From Verrucomicrobiaceae bacterium (GTDB lineage: Bacteria > Verrucomicrobiota > Verrucomicrobiia > Verrucomicrobiales > Verrucomicrobiaceae), in NCBI GenBank assembly GCA_019694165.1, contig JAIBCL010000013.1, forward strand, positions 124,001 to 188,000: 64,000 nt of DNA, written 5' to 3'. How positions within the stretch are numbered: the stretch's first letter is position 1; each line of letters starts with the position of its first letter. A program made the translations under genes and the position numbers. Of the stretch, positions 22,532-42,158 are shown piece by piece. The notes beneath the pieces are model-generated. The model did not search any database and was not told the origin of the DNA. It saw only the letters and a program-made list of their open reading frames with translations.

Positions 22532-23590
22532 TTGCACCCTGGAGGTGAAAAATGCAGCCATCCGGCCTCAGGCGGTGGCTTCCGTCCTTTCACCCCCTTC
22601 CGTCCCTCTCCCCGCTCACTCGCCACCGCCCTCCGTACCGCTCTCGCCTCTGAAAATGCGCCCGCACCATCCGAGGCGGCGCTCATCGGCGTCTCCGGGG
22701 GGCGTGATTCCGTCGCGCTGCTACGCTCTCTCCTCGCGCTCGGCTGGAAGAAGCTGATCGTCTGCCATTTGAATCACTCCCTTCGTGGTCATGAATCCGA
22801 CGCCGACGCCGACTTCGTCCGTAACCTCGCCAAAGAACACGGTCTCAAGTGCGAGATCGCAAAAGTCCGCGTGTCCGCACTTGCTCGAAAACAGAGCATT
22901 TCCACTGAACTCGCCGCTCGCCGTGCTCGCGAGGCGTTCTTTCTTCGCATGGCACGCAAGCACCGCACGCCATTCATCTTCCTCGCACACCACGCAGACG
23001 ACAACGCCGAGACGATCCTCGGCAATCTTTTCCGCGGCACCGGACTGGCCGGACTCGCCGGTATGGCGCCGAGATCCGAAACGGAAGACGGTCTAATCAA
23101 ACTGCGCCCGTTGCTCGCCTTGCGCCGCAGTGACATCGACGCCTTCGTGACGTCCGCCGGCGTCGAATTCCGCGAGGACTCCAGCAACACAACGCCGGAG
23201 CACCGACGCAATCGCATCCGCCACGAATTGCTGCCTTTGCTGGACGACATCTTCGATCGCGATGTGGTCCCGATCCTCGGACGTGTCGCGCAGAACGCAC
23301 GGCGGGATCGCGATTGTCTCGACGAGCTTGCGCGCGAATTCGCCCGCACCGACACGCTGTTCCAAGCCGACGGCTCGCTGCGCCTCACATCCGAACTCGT
23401 GCAAGCCGATCCCGCCATCCAGTCACGCATCTTGCTCGGCCTGCTCGTCGATGTGGCCGGCTGTGCCGACATAGGCACGCATGAGATCGAATCCGCGATA
23501 TCAATGCTCCAGCCCGGTGGCCCCGCGAAGATCAATCTCCCTGCTGCCCGGCACCTGAGGCGAAAATCGAAGCGTCTTTGGGTCGAGTGA
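22532..23590 (+). CDS. tilS: tRNA(Ile)-lysidine synthase, start codon unclear
   Basis: Converts C34 of tRNA-Ile(CAU) to lysidine using ATP and lysine, so that the tRNA reads AUA and accepts isoleucine. The N-type PP-loop SGGRDSVAL, HLNHSLRG, HHADDNAET and RPLL---R-DI segments are all present, and the protein is a normal-to-short form of about 350 residues. The start is a puzzle: there is no in-frame ATG between the serS stop and the PP-loop. A TTG at 22532 is used here as a provisional start. The only good ribosome-binding site (GGAGGTG at 22541) precedes an ATG at 22552 in another frame that ends after 33 codons. A sequencing error, a frameshift or a non-ATG start would each explain this. 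Confidence 0.85.
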   Translation: MHPGGEKCSHPASGGGFRPFTPFRPSPRSLATALRTALASENAPAPSEAALIGVSGGRDSVALLRSLLALGWKKLIVCHLNHSLRGHESDADADFVRNLAKEHGLKCEIAKVRVSALARKQSISTELAARRAREAFFLRMARKHRTPFIFLAHHADDNAETILGNLFRGTGLAGLAGMAPRSETEDGLIKLRPLLALRRSDIDAFVTSAGVEFREDSSNTTPEHRRNRIRHELLPLLDDIFDRDVVPILGRVAQNARRDRDCLDELAREFARTDTLFQADGSLRLTSELVQADPAIQSRILLGLLVDVAGCADIGTHEIESAISMLQPGGPAKINLPAARHLRRKSKRLWVE

Positions 23591-23627
23591 GCCTACCGTG
23601 GAAGCGGAGAGCCTGATCGCGTCTCCC

Positions 23628-23668
23628 CAAAAACAACAAAGCCGCGCCCCGTTTCCAGGGCGCGGCTT
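23628..23668 (-). terminator. Rho-independent terminator of the cysteine-rich peptide gene
   Basis: A perfect 11-bp stem AAGCCGCGCCC / GGGCGCGGCTT (23639-23668, 8-base loop) is followed, reading the minus strand, by TTTGTTGTTTTTGG. It lies 16 bp beyond the stop of the minus-strand gene at 23685. Confidence 0.8.
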
Positions 23669-23684
23669 CGTCGATGGGTTCAGA

Positions 23685-23834
23685 CTACTTCTTGCAGCAG
23701 TCCTTCGTGCAGTCGGCGCACTTGGCACCGCAGCACTTCGTGCATTTTTCCTTGCCGCCGCAGCCGCAGGCTTGCGAACTGACCGGCATGGCGAGGAAGC
23801 CGAATGCGAGGGCGAGTGTGAGGATGGATTTCAT
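23685..23834 (-). CDS. Small exported cysteine-rich peptide (49 aa)
   Basis: The ATG at 23834 opens a signal peptide (KSILTLALAFGFLAMPVSSQA) followed by a 27-residue mature part with nine cysteines in the pattern CGCGGKEKCTKCCGAKCADC and ending DCCKK. The Cys/Lys-rich pattern resembles metallothionein or other metal-binding peptides, but the match is by composition only. It has its own strong terminator (23628-23668), which supports expression as a separate unit. It is convergent with tilS and divergent from the esterase gene. Metal storage outside the cytoplasm is a guess. Confidence 0.75.
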   Translation of the reverse strand: MKSILTLALAFGFLAMPVSSQACGCGGKEKCTKCCGAKCADCTKDCCKK

Positions 23835-24106
23835 GTTTTCGATTTATAGTTGGTTGGTTGCGTTTGTGACATCACCGCCCGTTCGAGCGGCAAAAGGTTC
23901 TCCCGCTATCCAATGAGGACGCCTGCACGACCGTCTCACCGGCTGCCTCCAAAAGCTCAATGGCTTGTCCTGCTCCCATGGGATGCGCGGAGTTAACGCC
24001 ACAAGCGCGAGTTTTGCAACTGTCGCCTCGTTTTCTGCCGCGGCCTGCCTTCGTGCAACAACCTCTCCCTCTAACCCGTTCCTCAGCCTCCGCACCACAT
24101 CCCTCC

Positions 24107-25081
24107 ATGAAATCCGCCCTCGCTCTCGTCGCCCTGCTCGCTTTCACCAGCCCGCAAGTTTTCTCCCAGGCCCCGGCCAAGCCGGACGCAAAGCCCGCCA
24201 AACCCGCCGCTCCAGCGATCAAGCCCACGCTCGCCGACGTGCCATATGGCAGCGATCCGAAGCAGGTGCTCGATTTCTACAAGGTGGAGTCCAGCAAGCC
24301 GACGCCGCTGCTCTTCTTCATCCACGGCGGCGGCTGGGTGGCAGGCAGCAAGAGCGGCGTGAGCGGCCTGCGCGAATGTCTCGCGGCCGGCATCAGCGTC
24401 GTGTCGGTCGAATACCGCTTCATCCAGCAGGCGATGCTCGCCGGACAAAAGCCGCCGGTGGACTGGCCGCTGCACGATGCGGCGCGGGCGCTTCAGTTTG
24501 TCCGCAGCAAGGCCGCCGAGTGGAACATCGACCAGGAACGCATCGGTGCCTCCGGCGGCAGCGCGGGAGCATGCAGCAGCCTGTGGCTCGATTTTCATCC
24601 CGACATGGCCGATCCGAAGAGCAGCGATCCCATCGCGCGCGAATCCACGCGCCTGTGGTGCGCAGCGGTCATCGGCGCTCAGACCTCCCTCGATCCGAAG
24701 GAACTCAAGGAATGGACCCCAAACAGCCGCTACGGCGGCCACGCCTTCGGCTTCATGGACCCGAATGACACCAAGACCCGCGACACGCGCTTCGCCGAGT
24801 TTCTAGCGCACCGCGAGGAAGTGCTGCCTTGGATCAAGGAATACTCGCCCATCGAGCATCTCACCGCTGACGATCCGCCCGTTTACATGACCTACAGCGC
24901 ACCGCCCGCGATCGGCCAGGAACAAAAGGACCCGACGCACACCGCAAACTACGGCGTGAAGCTCAAGGAGCGCTGCGACAAGCTCGGCGTGAAGTGCGAA
25001 CTCTATTACCCCGGTGCCACCGACGCGCCGCACAAGACCGCGCACGAGTATCTCATCGAGCGGCTCAAGGCGGCCAAGTGA
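24107..25081 (+). CDS. Exported alpha/beta-hydrolase (HSL/carbohydrate-esterase type)
   Basis: 324 residues. Signal peptide at residues 1-23 (LALVALLAFTSPQVFSQA), then a Pro/Lys/Ala linker. Catalytic hallmarks are the oxyanion-hole HGGGWVAG, the nucleophile elbow GGSAGA, an Asp in DDPPVYMTYS and a His in DAPHKTAHEY. This family hydrolyses short acyl esters, and in polysaccharide-degrading bacteria often those on sugars; the true substrate is not shown. The frame is open upstream to 23960 but the ATG at 24107 starts the signal peptide. Confidence 0.85.
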   Translation: MKSALALVALLAFTSPQVFSQAPAKPDAKPAKPAAPAIKPTLADVPYGSDPKQVLDFYKVESSKPTPLLFFIHGGGWVAGSKSGVSGLRECLAAGISVVSVEYRFIQQAMLAGQKPPVDWPLHDAARALQFVRSKAAEWNIDQERIGASGGSAGACSSLWLDFHPDMADPKSSDPIARESTRLWCAAVIGAQTSLDPKELKEWTPNSRYGGHAFGFMDPNDTKTRDTRFAEFLAHREEVLPWIKEYSPIEHLTADDPPVYMTYSAPPAIGQEQKDPTHTANYGVKLKERCDKLGVKCELYYPGATDAPHKTAHEYLIERLKAAK

Positions 25082-39270: not shown

Positions 39271-42158
39271 GGCGTGTCGCGGGCGAACAAAGGCAATCGT
39301 ACGGTGAACGCTGTACCGGCGCCAGTCTCGCTGGATAGTTCGATGCTGCCGCCGTGCAAATCGACGCAGCGCCTGACGATGACGAGACCGAGGCCGGTGC
39401 CGGGTGCATCCCCGACATTCGAGCCGCGATGGAACGCCTCGAAGAGCCGCTCACGATCTTCCTCCGGTATGCCGATGCCGTGGTCAATCACTTCAAAAAC
39501 CGCGTCGGCTCCGGCGCGCCGGATGCGGAAGATCACGATGCTCTTCGCGGGCGAATACTTCACGGCATTGGCGATGAGATTGCCGAAGATGTGACGGAGC
39601 AGGGCCTCGTCTCCCGCCGCACCATCGAGCGAGCCCTCGATGGTGGTCTCCACGGGGCATTTGTGACCGGAGATGGACTGCATCTCATCGACGATGCGTG
39701 CGACGAAGGCCGCTACATCGAGCGGCTGCTGATGGCACGCGAGCTTCCCGGCTTCGACGCGTCCGAGCACCAGCACCTGCTCCATCAGCCCGCCCATGTG
39801 CCGGGTGGAACTCTGGATGGCGGCGAGCTGCTGGCGCTTCTCATCTTCGGGCAGGCGGTCGGAGTAATGCTGGAGCAGCTCCACCGACGACATGATCACG
39901 CCCAGCGGCGTGCGGAACTCGTGGCTGACCATGGCGACGAAGCGTGTCTTCAGTTCCCCCAGCTCACGCTCCTGCGCGAGGGCGCGGTGCAGCTCTCCCT
40001 GTGTCTGGCGCAGTTCGGCGGTGCGCTCGTTCACACGCTGCTCCAGCATCAGGGCGGCCTCCGCCTGCACGCGGCTGCTGCGCCGCAAAACGGCGATCCA
40101 CCCGAGCAGCAGCGCGAGCACCGCCGCGCCGCCGCCGCCCCAGAGCCAGAACTGCCGCGTGCGGACGGCCTGCGAGACACCGAGCGAGCGCACATCCGCC
40201 GGCGAGAGGAGCCACAGCTGCCGGGGATCCCGCGCGCTGCCACGCGCCACCAGCGCGCGCACCAGCACATCATCATCCACATTCAGCCGGTCAAATCCGG
40301 CCCGGCCCCCGGCATGATGGGTGGCAGCCATTTCCTCGCCGCCGGCTTCCAGCAGCATGGTGGTGCGCCATTCTCCATGCTCCATCGGCACTTGGTGGAG
40401 CGCCAGCAGCCGGCCGCGCACTTCCACCAGATCGGACGTATGCGAACCCCGCGCCACCTCCGCGAGTGAAGCCTGCACCGGCAGCGGCGCGGCGGCGGGA
40501 TGCCCGAGCTTCCTGATGAAGCACTCGTAAAGATCGAATCCCACCGGCAGCGGCTCGATCACATTTTTCATGGCCGAACCCATCACCTCGACTTCATCTC
40601 CGGCATGGACATCCGGCCACGGACCGCAATCGACGACGTTCCTGCCATTGGCACCCTCCATGCGCGGCCACGGACGCTGGAGGATGATGCACACAGCCTG
40701 GTCGCGGCCGCGCACATGGAGCACACCTTCATCCGGCACACCGACGACGACGCCACGGATTCTTACTCGCTCCGGCGCGGATGTCCCCCCGTCAGAAATG
40801 TCCTTCATGTCCTTCTGCGGCGCGTCGAACGGATCGCGCGTCCCTGCCCGGACCACTTCAACGAAGGATGGACCTGTCACATGCAGCACATCGGTCCGGC
40901 TCTGCAACAAGCTGCGGCTCATGCCGGTGAAACGCAGCCGCGCGCCGTGCAGGTCGGCGGGCAATGCAGGGCCCGCATTGCGGACAAGAATCTGCGCCGA
41001 CGAGTGCGTGCCGAGGATGGAGCATCCGAGTGTGCCCCCCTGCTGAATCCAGGCCGTGACCACGCCTTCCACGCTCACCCAGTCGTCGTGATTCTTCCAT
41101 CCGAGCAGGGTTTCGAGTTCCACGGGTTTTGCCTTTGGCGGCGCCGACTTGCCGATGACCCGCCCCTGACAGCCGATGAGTCCGCAGGCCCGCAGGTCGG
41201 CGTCCGTCGGATCACTGCTGACGATGGACCCCACGAGTTCCATTTCATCACCCGCCACCGGCGTCGGCCACAGGCCGGAGTCGCTGTAAATGGTTCCGGC
41301 CTGCTCCTGACCTCGGGACGGCTGCATCTGGCACGTCATGCCTCCCTCGGGTCCCGTGAGGAAGACCTTGCGGTCCGGCGTGACTGCCGCCACGACACCT
41401 TTCACCCGCCACCGCCGCGCGAACTCGAGCTGCCGCTGCACGACGGCATCGATCGACGCCGGTGGCGCTGCAAACACGTCCTCCATTCCCGGCTCGACTA
41501 TCTCCATCTGCTTCGCGTCGGGCACGAAGAGAACTTTGCCCAGCGACGGCGTGCTCACCACCGCACCGGTGATGCGCAGGCGCGCTCCGTGCAGACTGGG
41601 CGGCAGGCTCGCCGCATCCGGCACCGTCACATTGGCATCCGCGATCCCGTCACGGCAGACCAGCCGCACCTGGAAATCGGGCGCCTTGTACTTCCACTCC
41701 AGCACAAAGCCGTCGATGCTCACCCACTGATCGTAGAACGAAACGTCGGTAAGGTCCATGGCCGGCACCGCCGTCGGTTGCGGCAGCTTCCCGGCGCCTG
41801 TCACCCGGATCGACTCCGCGGCCACGCGCGGATGCATGTGGCCCGCCACACTGGTCATCATGGTCTGTCCCGTGATTTCGACTTCATCCCCCTGCTTCAC
41901 GGACGGGTGGGCGCGCTTCAGAATCACTCCCAGTCCCCTGACTCCATCATGCACCGACATGAAGTTGAACATCGTGCTCTCACCGAGCACCACGCAATTC
42001 AGCCGCACGGGCCGCGGGTTCTGCCGCGCATCGAGACCGTCGAGCGCCAGGATGTCAGCGATGCTCGTCAGCGTGCCGTCGCCAGCCGACTGCCCATGAA
42101 GCACCGCCACCGGCGATGCCAGAAACGCGCACAGAAAAATAATGCGGAAGGCCGGCAT
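39267..42158 (-). CDS. Sensor histidine kinase with extracytoplasmic OB-like repeats
   Basis: 963 residues from the ATG at 42158, which opens a signal peptide (RIIFLCAFLASPVAVLHG). Residues about 30-660 are extracytoplasmic and contain roughly six related beta-rich segments (GDEVEITGQ, GARLRITGAV, GDEMELVGS, GARLRFTGM, GDEVEVMGS and so on) that look like OB folds in tandem. A membrane helix lies near 671-692, then a short coiled coil, HisKA with His746 in SHEFRTPL, and HATPase (N-box NLIANAVKYSP, G boxes DHGIGIP and GTGLGL). Phosphotransfer to the overlapping response regulator is expected. The ligand is unknown. Confidence 0.9.
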   Translation of the reverse strand: MPAFRIIFLCAFLASPVAVLHGQSAGDGTLTSIADILALDGLDARQNPRPVRLNCVVLGESTMFNFMSVHDGVRGLGVILKRAHPSVKQGDEVEITGQTMMTSVAGHMHPRVAAESIRVTGAGKLPQPTAVPAMDLTDVSFYDQWVSIDGFVLEWKYKAPDFQVRLVCRDGIADANVTVPDAASLPPSLHGARLRITGAVVSTPSLGKVLFVPDAKQMEIVEPGMEDVFAAPPASIDAVVQRQLEFARRWRVKGVVAAVTPDRKVFLTGPEGGMTCQMQPSRGQEQAGTIYSDSGLWPTPVAGDEMELVGSIVSSDPTDADLRACGLIGCQGRVIGKSAPPKAKPVELETLLGWKNHDDWVSVEGVVTAWIQQGGTLGCSILGTHSSAQILVRNAGPALPADLHGARLRFTGMSRSLLQSRTDVLHVTGPSFVEVVRAGTRDPFDAPQKDMKDISDGGTSAPERVRIRGVVVGVPDEGVLHVRGRDQAVCIILQRPWPRMEGANGRNVVDCGPWPDVHAGDEVEVMGSAMKNVIEPLPVGFDLYECFIRKLGHPAAAPLPVQASLAEVARGSHTSDLVEVRGRLLALHQVPMEHGEWRTTMLLEAGGEEMAATHHAGGRAGFDRLNVDDDVLVRALVARGSARDPRQLWLLSPADVRSLGVSQAVRTRQFWLWGGGGAAVLALLLGWIAVLRRSSRVQAEAALMLEQRVNERTAELRQTQGELHRALAQERELGELKTRFVAMVSHEFRTPLGVIMSSVELLQHYSDRLPEDEKRQQLAAIQSSTRHMGGLMEQVLVLGRVEAGKLACHQQPLDVAAFVARIVDEMQSISGHKCPVETTIEGSLDGAAGDEALLRHIFGNLIANAVKYSPAKSIVIFRIRRAGADAVFEVIDHGIGIPEEDRERLFEAFHRGSNVGDAPGTGLGLVIVRRCVDLHGGSIELSSETGAGTAFTVRLPLFARDTP

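Follow-up and report, generated by a model that had tools for sequence, protein, structure and literature searches.

Does a reading frame of only 49 codons in a verrucomicrobial genome represent a gene, and what could a small, apparently exported peptide with nine cysteines do for its host? The frame lies within the window, by which the whole analysed stretch of 64,000 nucleotides is meant. Positions 23685-23834 read through without a stop on the minus strand as MKSILTLALAFGFLAMPVSSQACGCGGKEKCTKCCGAKCADCTKDCCKK*, and the preliminary description of a 49-codon ORF with a 27-residue mature part, nine Cys, seven Lys and its own terminator proved exact when the sequence was re-read. The features of the locus are the following:

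23685..23834, minus strand: coding sequence of a 49-residue Cys- and Lys-rich peptide with predicted export, stop codon at 23685-23687 (from the sequence and its relatives)
23769..23834, minus strand: predicted signal peptide, codons 1-22, MKSILTLALAFGFLAMPVSSQA, which aligns with the signal regions of the relatives
23688..23768, minus strand: mature part, CGCGGKEKCTKCCGAKCADCTKDCCKK, 27 residues with nine Cys and seven Lys (from the translation)
23634..23673, minus strand: intrinsic terminator, an 18-pair stem with 12 G-C pairs and a 4-nt loop, followed by TTTTT (from the sequence)
23835..24106, minus strand: upstream region without a CWCC partner gene, divergent from a plus-strand alpha/beta-hydrolase-like ORF with its ATG at 24107

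The cleavage site after SSQA was placed by eye, with small residues at -3 and -1. The convergent neighbouring ORF, ending at 23590, was taken for tilS by its SGGRDS motif, and the divergent ORF starting at 24107 is presumably alpha/beta-hydrolase-like, judged by its HGGGW motif. Terminator-like sites are not rare as such near the gene, as five were found compared to 2.2 in shuffled sequences. The stems of the other four span only 5-8 pairs, and one of these sites is part of the 18-pair hairpin.

Across the 64 kb, the gene is the sole ATG-initiated ORF of 30-90 amino acids with at least seven Cys within 27 residues. Forty second-order Markov randomisations of the window yielded on average 0.05 such Cys-rich ORFs and none with nine Cys. 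These randomisations, together with the relatives described below, led to the rejection of a chance ORF. An RNA gene at this locus was also rejected, as an Rfam scan of positions 23000-24500 yielded no family match at gathering scores. The ORF is a real, easily missed gene.

Relatives of the peptide and anatomy of the family

Searching the own genome with the single sequence returned the peptide itself and two matches at E ~0.37. The same query matched 15 of 68 genomes of the family, the own genome included, at E<=0.1, and beyond the own genome four of these (G022, G023, G047 and G048) were taken as real after reading the ORFs. With an alignment of these four and the window copy, at least ten of 387 genomes of the phylum matched at E<=0.01. 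One match revealed a further copy within the own genome (C41:41631-41786, E 6e-17), and another a peptide in G191, a member of another family of the class (E 5.8e-6); the matches in the other eight genomes were not accepted. An eight-row profile (A2) matched 41 of the 68 family genomes at E<=0.01, so that the coherent but easily missed gene of the preliminary description was borne out by members of the same kind. A 20-row profile (A4) matched at least six of 374 phylum genomes at E<=0.001, namely the own genome, G013, G191 and three with weak matches which were not accepted. Searching genome contigs with the alignment found three loci, of which L039 carries the peptide of G005; the single-sequence query found none there. 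According to the named records, the relatives fall in Verrucomicrobia/Verrucomicrobiales. A plasmid search with the member from G059 as query gave no match. As homologues thus exist in the family and phylum genomes, the lack of homologues that the preliminary description had named as an argument against the gene does not apply.

Whether the window copy belongs to this family had to be judged with care, since every profile used includes it and Cys-rich composition raises scores. It shares 29-50% identity with the 19 other rows of A4 and 44% with the C41 copy in the aligned part, and its profile E-values are 1.1e-16 (A2) and 2.9e-13 (A4), both from alignments which contain the window copy. Membership was tested by comparing each mature part with 300 composition-preserving shuffles (43 comparisons, raw p-values). 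Under this control, the mature part of the window copy resembled five of the 43 rows at p<0.01: G022 and G047, for which 0 of 300 shuffles scored as well, and G048, G024 and G005 (p=0.003 each). The values were higher for the C41 copy (p=0.07), for G191 (p=0.15) and for the second of the G020 copies (p=0.28). The C-terminal CTKDCCK is identical in the window copy, G022, G047 and G048, and the start and signal region are shared with relatives as well. Due to these composition-controlled matches and the shared start, signal region and CTKDCCK, the window copy is a probable member of a family of Cys- and Lys-rich peptides with predicted export.

Such a family has probably not been described so far. 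For the window peptide, neither Pfam nor NCBIfam gave a family at E<=10, and no metallothionein family was listed for the 20 members scanned. Eight members matched the NCBIfam families Asr (best E 8.6e-6), BhsA and others, all below the cut-offs and within residues 1-40; these matches appear to reflect mainly the signal region. A search of solved structures gave two matches at E ~0.9, covering the signal region and the first Cys, and the AlphaFold model of the window peptide is of low confidence (mean pLDDT 60).

In total, 44 peptide rows were collected, including the window copy, the second copies of G014 and G020, and G191. Exactly nine Cys occur in 39 of them, the remainder having 7, 7, 7, 6 and 10. 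The most frequent arrangement is C-x2-CC-x3/6-C-x2-CC-x5-C-x3-CC, with Lys in abundance and the Cys-Cys and CxxC spacing kept. The window peptide has kept nine Cys and a C-terminal CTKDCCKK, whose C-x3-CC-K is common to most rows of A4, but opens with CGC rather than CxxCC. The coding sequences bear the mark of purifying selection on the family: pooled pN/pS is 0.185 and lies below 1 in all 63 pairs of equal-length rows less than 20% different, pairs which are not independent of each other and do not include the window copy. Terminator-like hairpins follow 41 of the 44 peptide genes, compared to means of 2.1 (strict rule) and 14.1 (loose rule) of 44 in ten Markov resamplings.

Peptides in G006 (L120), G007 (L121) and G008 (L114), which lie outside the 44-row set, have a lipobox-like SSC and a total of 12 Cys, and G062 (L116) has a lipobox-like MSAC version; these four may possibly be membrane-anchored. 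That the export signal changes while the Cys part stays suggests a peptide working outside the cytoplasm, and the lipobox-like signals, which replace the ordinary ones in these two groups, fit the export that had been proposed from the window copy.

In G191 (L026/L042), another Cys-rich ORF (CCCADPSEP...CGCRTCP) takes the place of the CWCC gene upstream of the family peptide. This upstream ORF has a sub-threshold match to Metallothio_11 (E 0.02).

The two-gene unit with a CWCC protein

The usual form of the peptide is that of the second gene in a two-gene unit whose first gene encodes a CWCC protein. A profile of the gene upstream of the peptide matched 43 of the 68 family genomes, and G054, added by scanning, brought the set to 44 partner rows. 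In 40 of these, the peptide follows the partner on the same strand after a gap of 117-235 nt, and in three further rows a lipobox version succeeds it; in G011, which has the partner, no peptide was seen nearby. The partner is a protein of ~126 residues. Its N-terminal hydrophobic segment runs up to CWCC or a similar motif, additional Cys pairs follow, and the C-terminus resembles GPP...PLYxRHCALLI. AlphaFold models the partner with low confidence (mean pLDDT 55). Outside the family, at least three of 374 phylum genomes (G301, G315 and G106) have weaker partner matches (E 4e-8 to 5e-6), with no such peptide within ~1.5 kb of the match.

The unit of the own genome lies on C41 (C41:41028-41792, equal to L041:9029-9793), with the partner at 41028-41429 and the peptide at 41631-41789, followed by a hairpin. 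It sits behind a gene for a XerD-like tyrosine recombinase (Phage_integrase in Pfam), and the end of such a recombinase gene lies at most 180 nt upstream in 10 of the 44 partner rows.

In 34 of 44 rows, a TTGAAY or GGAATA box is present in the 100 nt that precede the partner gene. Upstream of the peptide this holds for 1 of 43 rows, and 200 resamplings gave 3.7 rows on average and 11 at most. The box mostly lies 35-54 nt before the start codon, and in some rows a TCTAA/TCTGA-like box follows it. A two-box pattern resembling ECF promoters was found for 16 of 44 partners and 4 of 43 peptides in its loose form (resampled mean 1.6), and for 13 of 44 and 0 of 43 in a stricter form (resampled mean 0.26); all these patterns were picked after inspecting the sequences. 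The box could represent an ECF-sigma-type promoter, in which case the transcript would be nearly leaderless. The C41 unit does not contain the promoter patterns.

The spacers between partner and peptide fold with a mean z of -1.32, 20 of 40 lying below -1.5 and several near or above 0. In 12 related genomes they contain conserved blocks able to pair as 1:2, 2:3 or 3:4, these pairings being mutually exclusive:

A6 spacers (L047, L048, L050, L052-L057, L060, L062, L063): CGTCTGG / CCAGACG..CCGGGCA / TGCCCGG.CGTCTGG / GCCAG, the blocks in this order

These mutually exclusive hairpins would be attenuator-like by analogy. The pairings 1:2, 2:3 and 3:4 are kept in 97% of the cells of the 12 genomes. 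As none of the three helices contains a change on both sides, sequence conservation alone could explain the kept pairings; of 48 predicted spacer pairs, 3 have a two-sided change, none of them inside these helices.

The window copy stands apart from this arrangement. The sole partner match in the own genome is the one on C41, with none beside the window copy, and the partner-promoter patterns are absent from the 300 nt upstream of it. In ten family genomes, that of the congener G009 among them, no peptide of this kind was seen within 1.5 kb behind tilS. A disruption of the frame in sister strains, which the preliminary description had asked about, was not seen in the one congener, where the peptide is absent beside tilS. 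The window copy is probably a diverged relative without a partner and a paralogue of the C41 peptide, with which it may share common descent. The conserved two-gene unit is of more interest than this lone copy, which is itself of moderate interest.

A bolder reading is that the first gene controls the second. A short-lived, exported CWCC leader, transcribed from an ECF-type promoter, would sense metal while being translated, the hairpin spacer would set the level of the nine-Cys sink accordingly, and the window copy would be a paralogue that escaped from this control. This scenario is doubtful. Precedents come from Proteobacteria: copper sensing by the nascent chain of CruR governs the expression of the following genes, as stated in the accessible part of PMC9426467; CutF of Rhodobacter, which combines a CxxxC motif with a proline-rich end, lies ahead of cutO, according to the excerpt of PMC8456105; and PMC9973294 deals with translational control exerted by a nascent exported protein, as far as its opening indicates. 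As far as these extracts describe CruR (PMC9426467) and CutF (PMC8456105), the CWCC protein appears to share their length of ~120-145 residues, a predicted export signal, a Cys motif, a PP in the C-terminal part, the position as first gene of a unit and the long gap before the next gene, but they have RAPP at the extreme end where the partner has GPP...PLYxRHCALLI. When the 44 partners were read by eye, CPC or CxxC was seen, as well as PP in many, not at the extreme end.

Membership of the partner in DUF2946 (PF11162) was not borne out, as no significant match was obtained (one of 12 partners at E 1.8; one of ten at E 2.8, with 9.1 bits against 23.7). PF11162 matched 23 of the 68 family genomes at E<=0.1, one of them over the cut-off, and no partner gene is among the 31 places listed for the family. 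Since PF11162 fails on the partner and its places in the family are different genes, the CWCC protein would be at most a CruR-like analogue or a very distant relative. A role as leader of an RND operon was not borne out by the neighbours that were read.

Small DUF2946-like (CruR-like) proteins, one of them over the Pfam cut-off, whose ends are DPPPLRALCEVLSRTACPVRGPTQA-like or RAPPTV were seen in L163 (G042 C111), L173 (G020 C77) and L167 (G050 C666). Those of L163 and L167 precede HlyD-type genes, and CruR-like leaders may exist in these bacteria.

A proposed metal sink weighed against other readings

The reading preferred here is that of an extracytoplasmic, metallothionein-like thiolate metal sink, to which a probability of about one half is given. 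The peptide would be exported via the general secretory route and act in the periplasm or at the envelope, where its paired Cys thiolates, if kept reduced, would bind soft metal ions such as Cu(I), Zn, Cd, Ag or Hg. The likeness to metal-thiolate proteins drawn in the preliminary description holds for the CC, CxxC and CxxCC spacings and agrees with two partnerless relatives in heavy-metal islands, but did not extend to a match with any metallothionein profile. The genes clustered around these two relatives (G020 C33:206366-206506, L142; G042 C269:10556-10693, L118/L141; family-profile E ~0.001) encode P-type ATPases with HMA or HMBD domains, a YHS protein and proteins of the Metal_resist type; of the two matches to Metal_resist, one falls below its cut-off. 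The G042 copy contains an in-frame stop.

For the canonical units, ORFs of seven loci were listed, G191 included, and a few neighbours were scanned in Pfam. Those of C41 are an ABC ATPase, the integrase, a HlyD-type protein and a MacB-type permease. Elsewhere, an oxidoreductase, two kinases, a polysaccharide-export protein, a P450, a thioredoxin-like protein and one protein without match were found, and an ABC-type ATPase lies beside the G191 peptide. No metal-resistance family was present among the eight neighbours scanned outside the own genome (seven canonical, one of G191), nor among the scanned neighbours on C41, which makes the link of the canonical units to metal indirect. The link of the window copy is indirect as well, given the composition-controlled p-values for the C41 copy and the G020 metal-island copy (0.07 and 0.28). 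Further points against the metal sink are the missing metallothionein match, the CGC start, and a window copy without partner, promoter patterns or counterparts beside tilS.

The periplasm may also oxidise the thiols of the peptide, which counts against a metal sink and leads to a different reading, in which a disulfide-bonded exported peptide serves an antimicrobial, signalling or envelope-structural role and the Cys are structural instead of metal ligands. Export of a small, basic, Cys-rich peptide into an oxidising compartment would fit, and its several CC pairs recall disulfide-rich peptides. Yet the commonest Cys count is odd, nine in 39 of 44 peptides, with 6, 7 and 10 also occurring and 12 in lipobox versions; moreover, lipobox-like versions are ill-suited to a released peptide, and two relatives sit in metal islands. 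This makes a disulfide-bonded peptide unlikely. It is unlikely, too, that the window copy is a relic or chance retention out of use, with only the C41 unit of importance. Its solitary, diverged state, the missing partner and promoter pattern and a congener without the peptide at the corresponding place would all agree with a relic, but start, frame, signal, nine Cys and CTKDCCKK are intact despite only 44% identity to C41, and the terminator is strong; the window copy may be expressed.

High thiol content would also suit a buffer for envelope thiol redox or oxidative stress. The gene directly after the peptide in L039 (G005; L039:4213-6450) is thioredoxin-like (Thioredox_DsbH), and the surface metallothionein PmtA has been tied to oxidative stress in the portion of PMC11237414 at hand. 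Such a neighbour is present at only one unit among those scanned, however, and the metal islands around the G020 and G042 relatives speak for metal, so that a redox buffer appears quite improbable. Even less probable is a precursor of a bufferin-kind RiPP metallophore, some of whose Cys an MNIO enzyme would convert. Cys-rich peptides with predicted export, in part preceded by an ECF-like promoter, do resemble bufferins, many precursors have no MNIO link in the survey as excerpted (PMC12452194), and MNIO genes occur in 20 of the 68 family genomes. This reading is nevertheless disfavoured, as no MNIO gene (PF05114) was matched in the own genome, with a positive Caulobacter control that matched in 2 of 14. 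Among the 41 peptide-bearing genomes, 13 have MNIO (one partial), always on another contig than the peptide, in genomes which are drafts.

Returning to the metal sink and its putative control, the CWCC gene would be a candidate metal-sensing leader beyond the cases described in Proteobacteria. No family in Pfam describes the CWCC protein or the peptide, and none in NCBIfam the peptide; surveys built on these collections would therefore be blind to the unit and miss both genes.

Comparison with known metal-binding systems

SmtA/BmtA and MymT are bacterial metallothioneins, and among the Csp copper-storage proteins Csp1 is exported. Like the bacterial metallothioneins, the window peptide is very small and Cys-rich with CC and CxxC spacings, but it matches no metallothionein profile and has an export-type signal. 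PmtA has no signal peptide according to the text available from PMC11237414, and no exported or verrucomicrobial bacterial metallothionein was found among the literature matches listed, as judged from titles and abstract openings. The Csp proteins are Cys-rich copper sinks (Csp3, in the extract of PMC5171941), which the window peptide would resemble, but form four-helix bundles, whereas the window peptide has 49 residues and a low-confidence model. Bufferins, some of which have lipoprotein signals, are exported Cys-rich peptides, as the window peptide is predicted to be, and sigma-factor genes occur in part of their clusters, as far as the excerpt of PMC12452194 goes. They differ in being modified by MNIO enzymes, which the own genome lacks and which the family does not have on any peptide contig, and neither the window peptide nor any scanned member matches a bufferin family of Pfam. 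If the preferred reading is true, this conserved exported family of an environmental phylum would represent a thiolate metal sink outside the cytoplasm which works without the enzyme-made chemistry of the bufferins.
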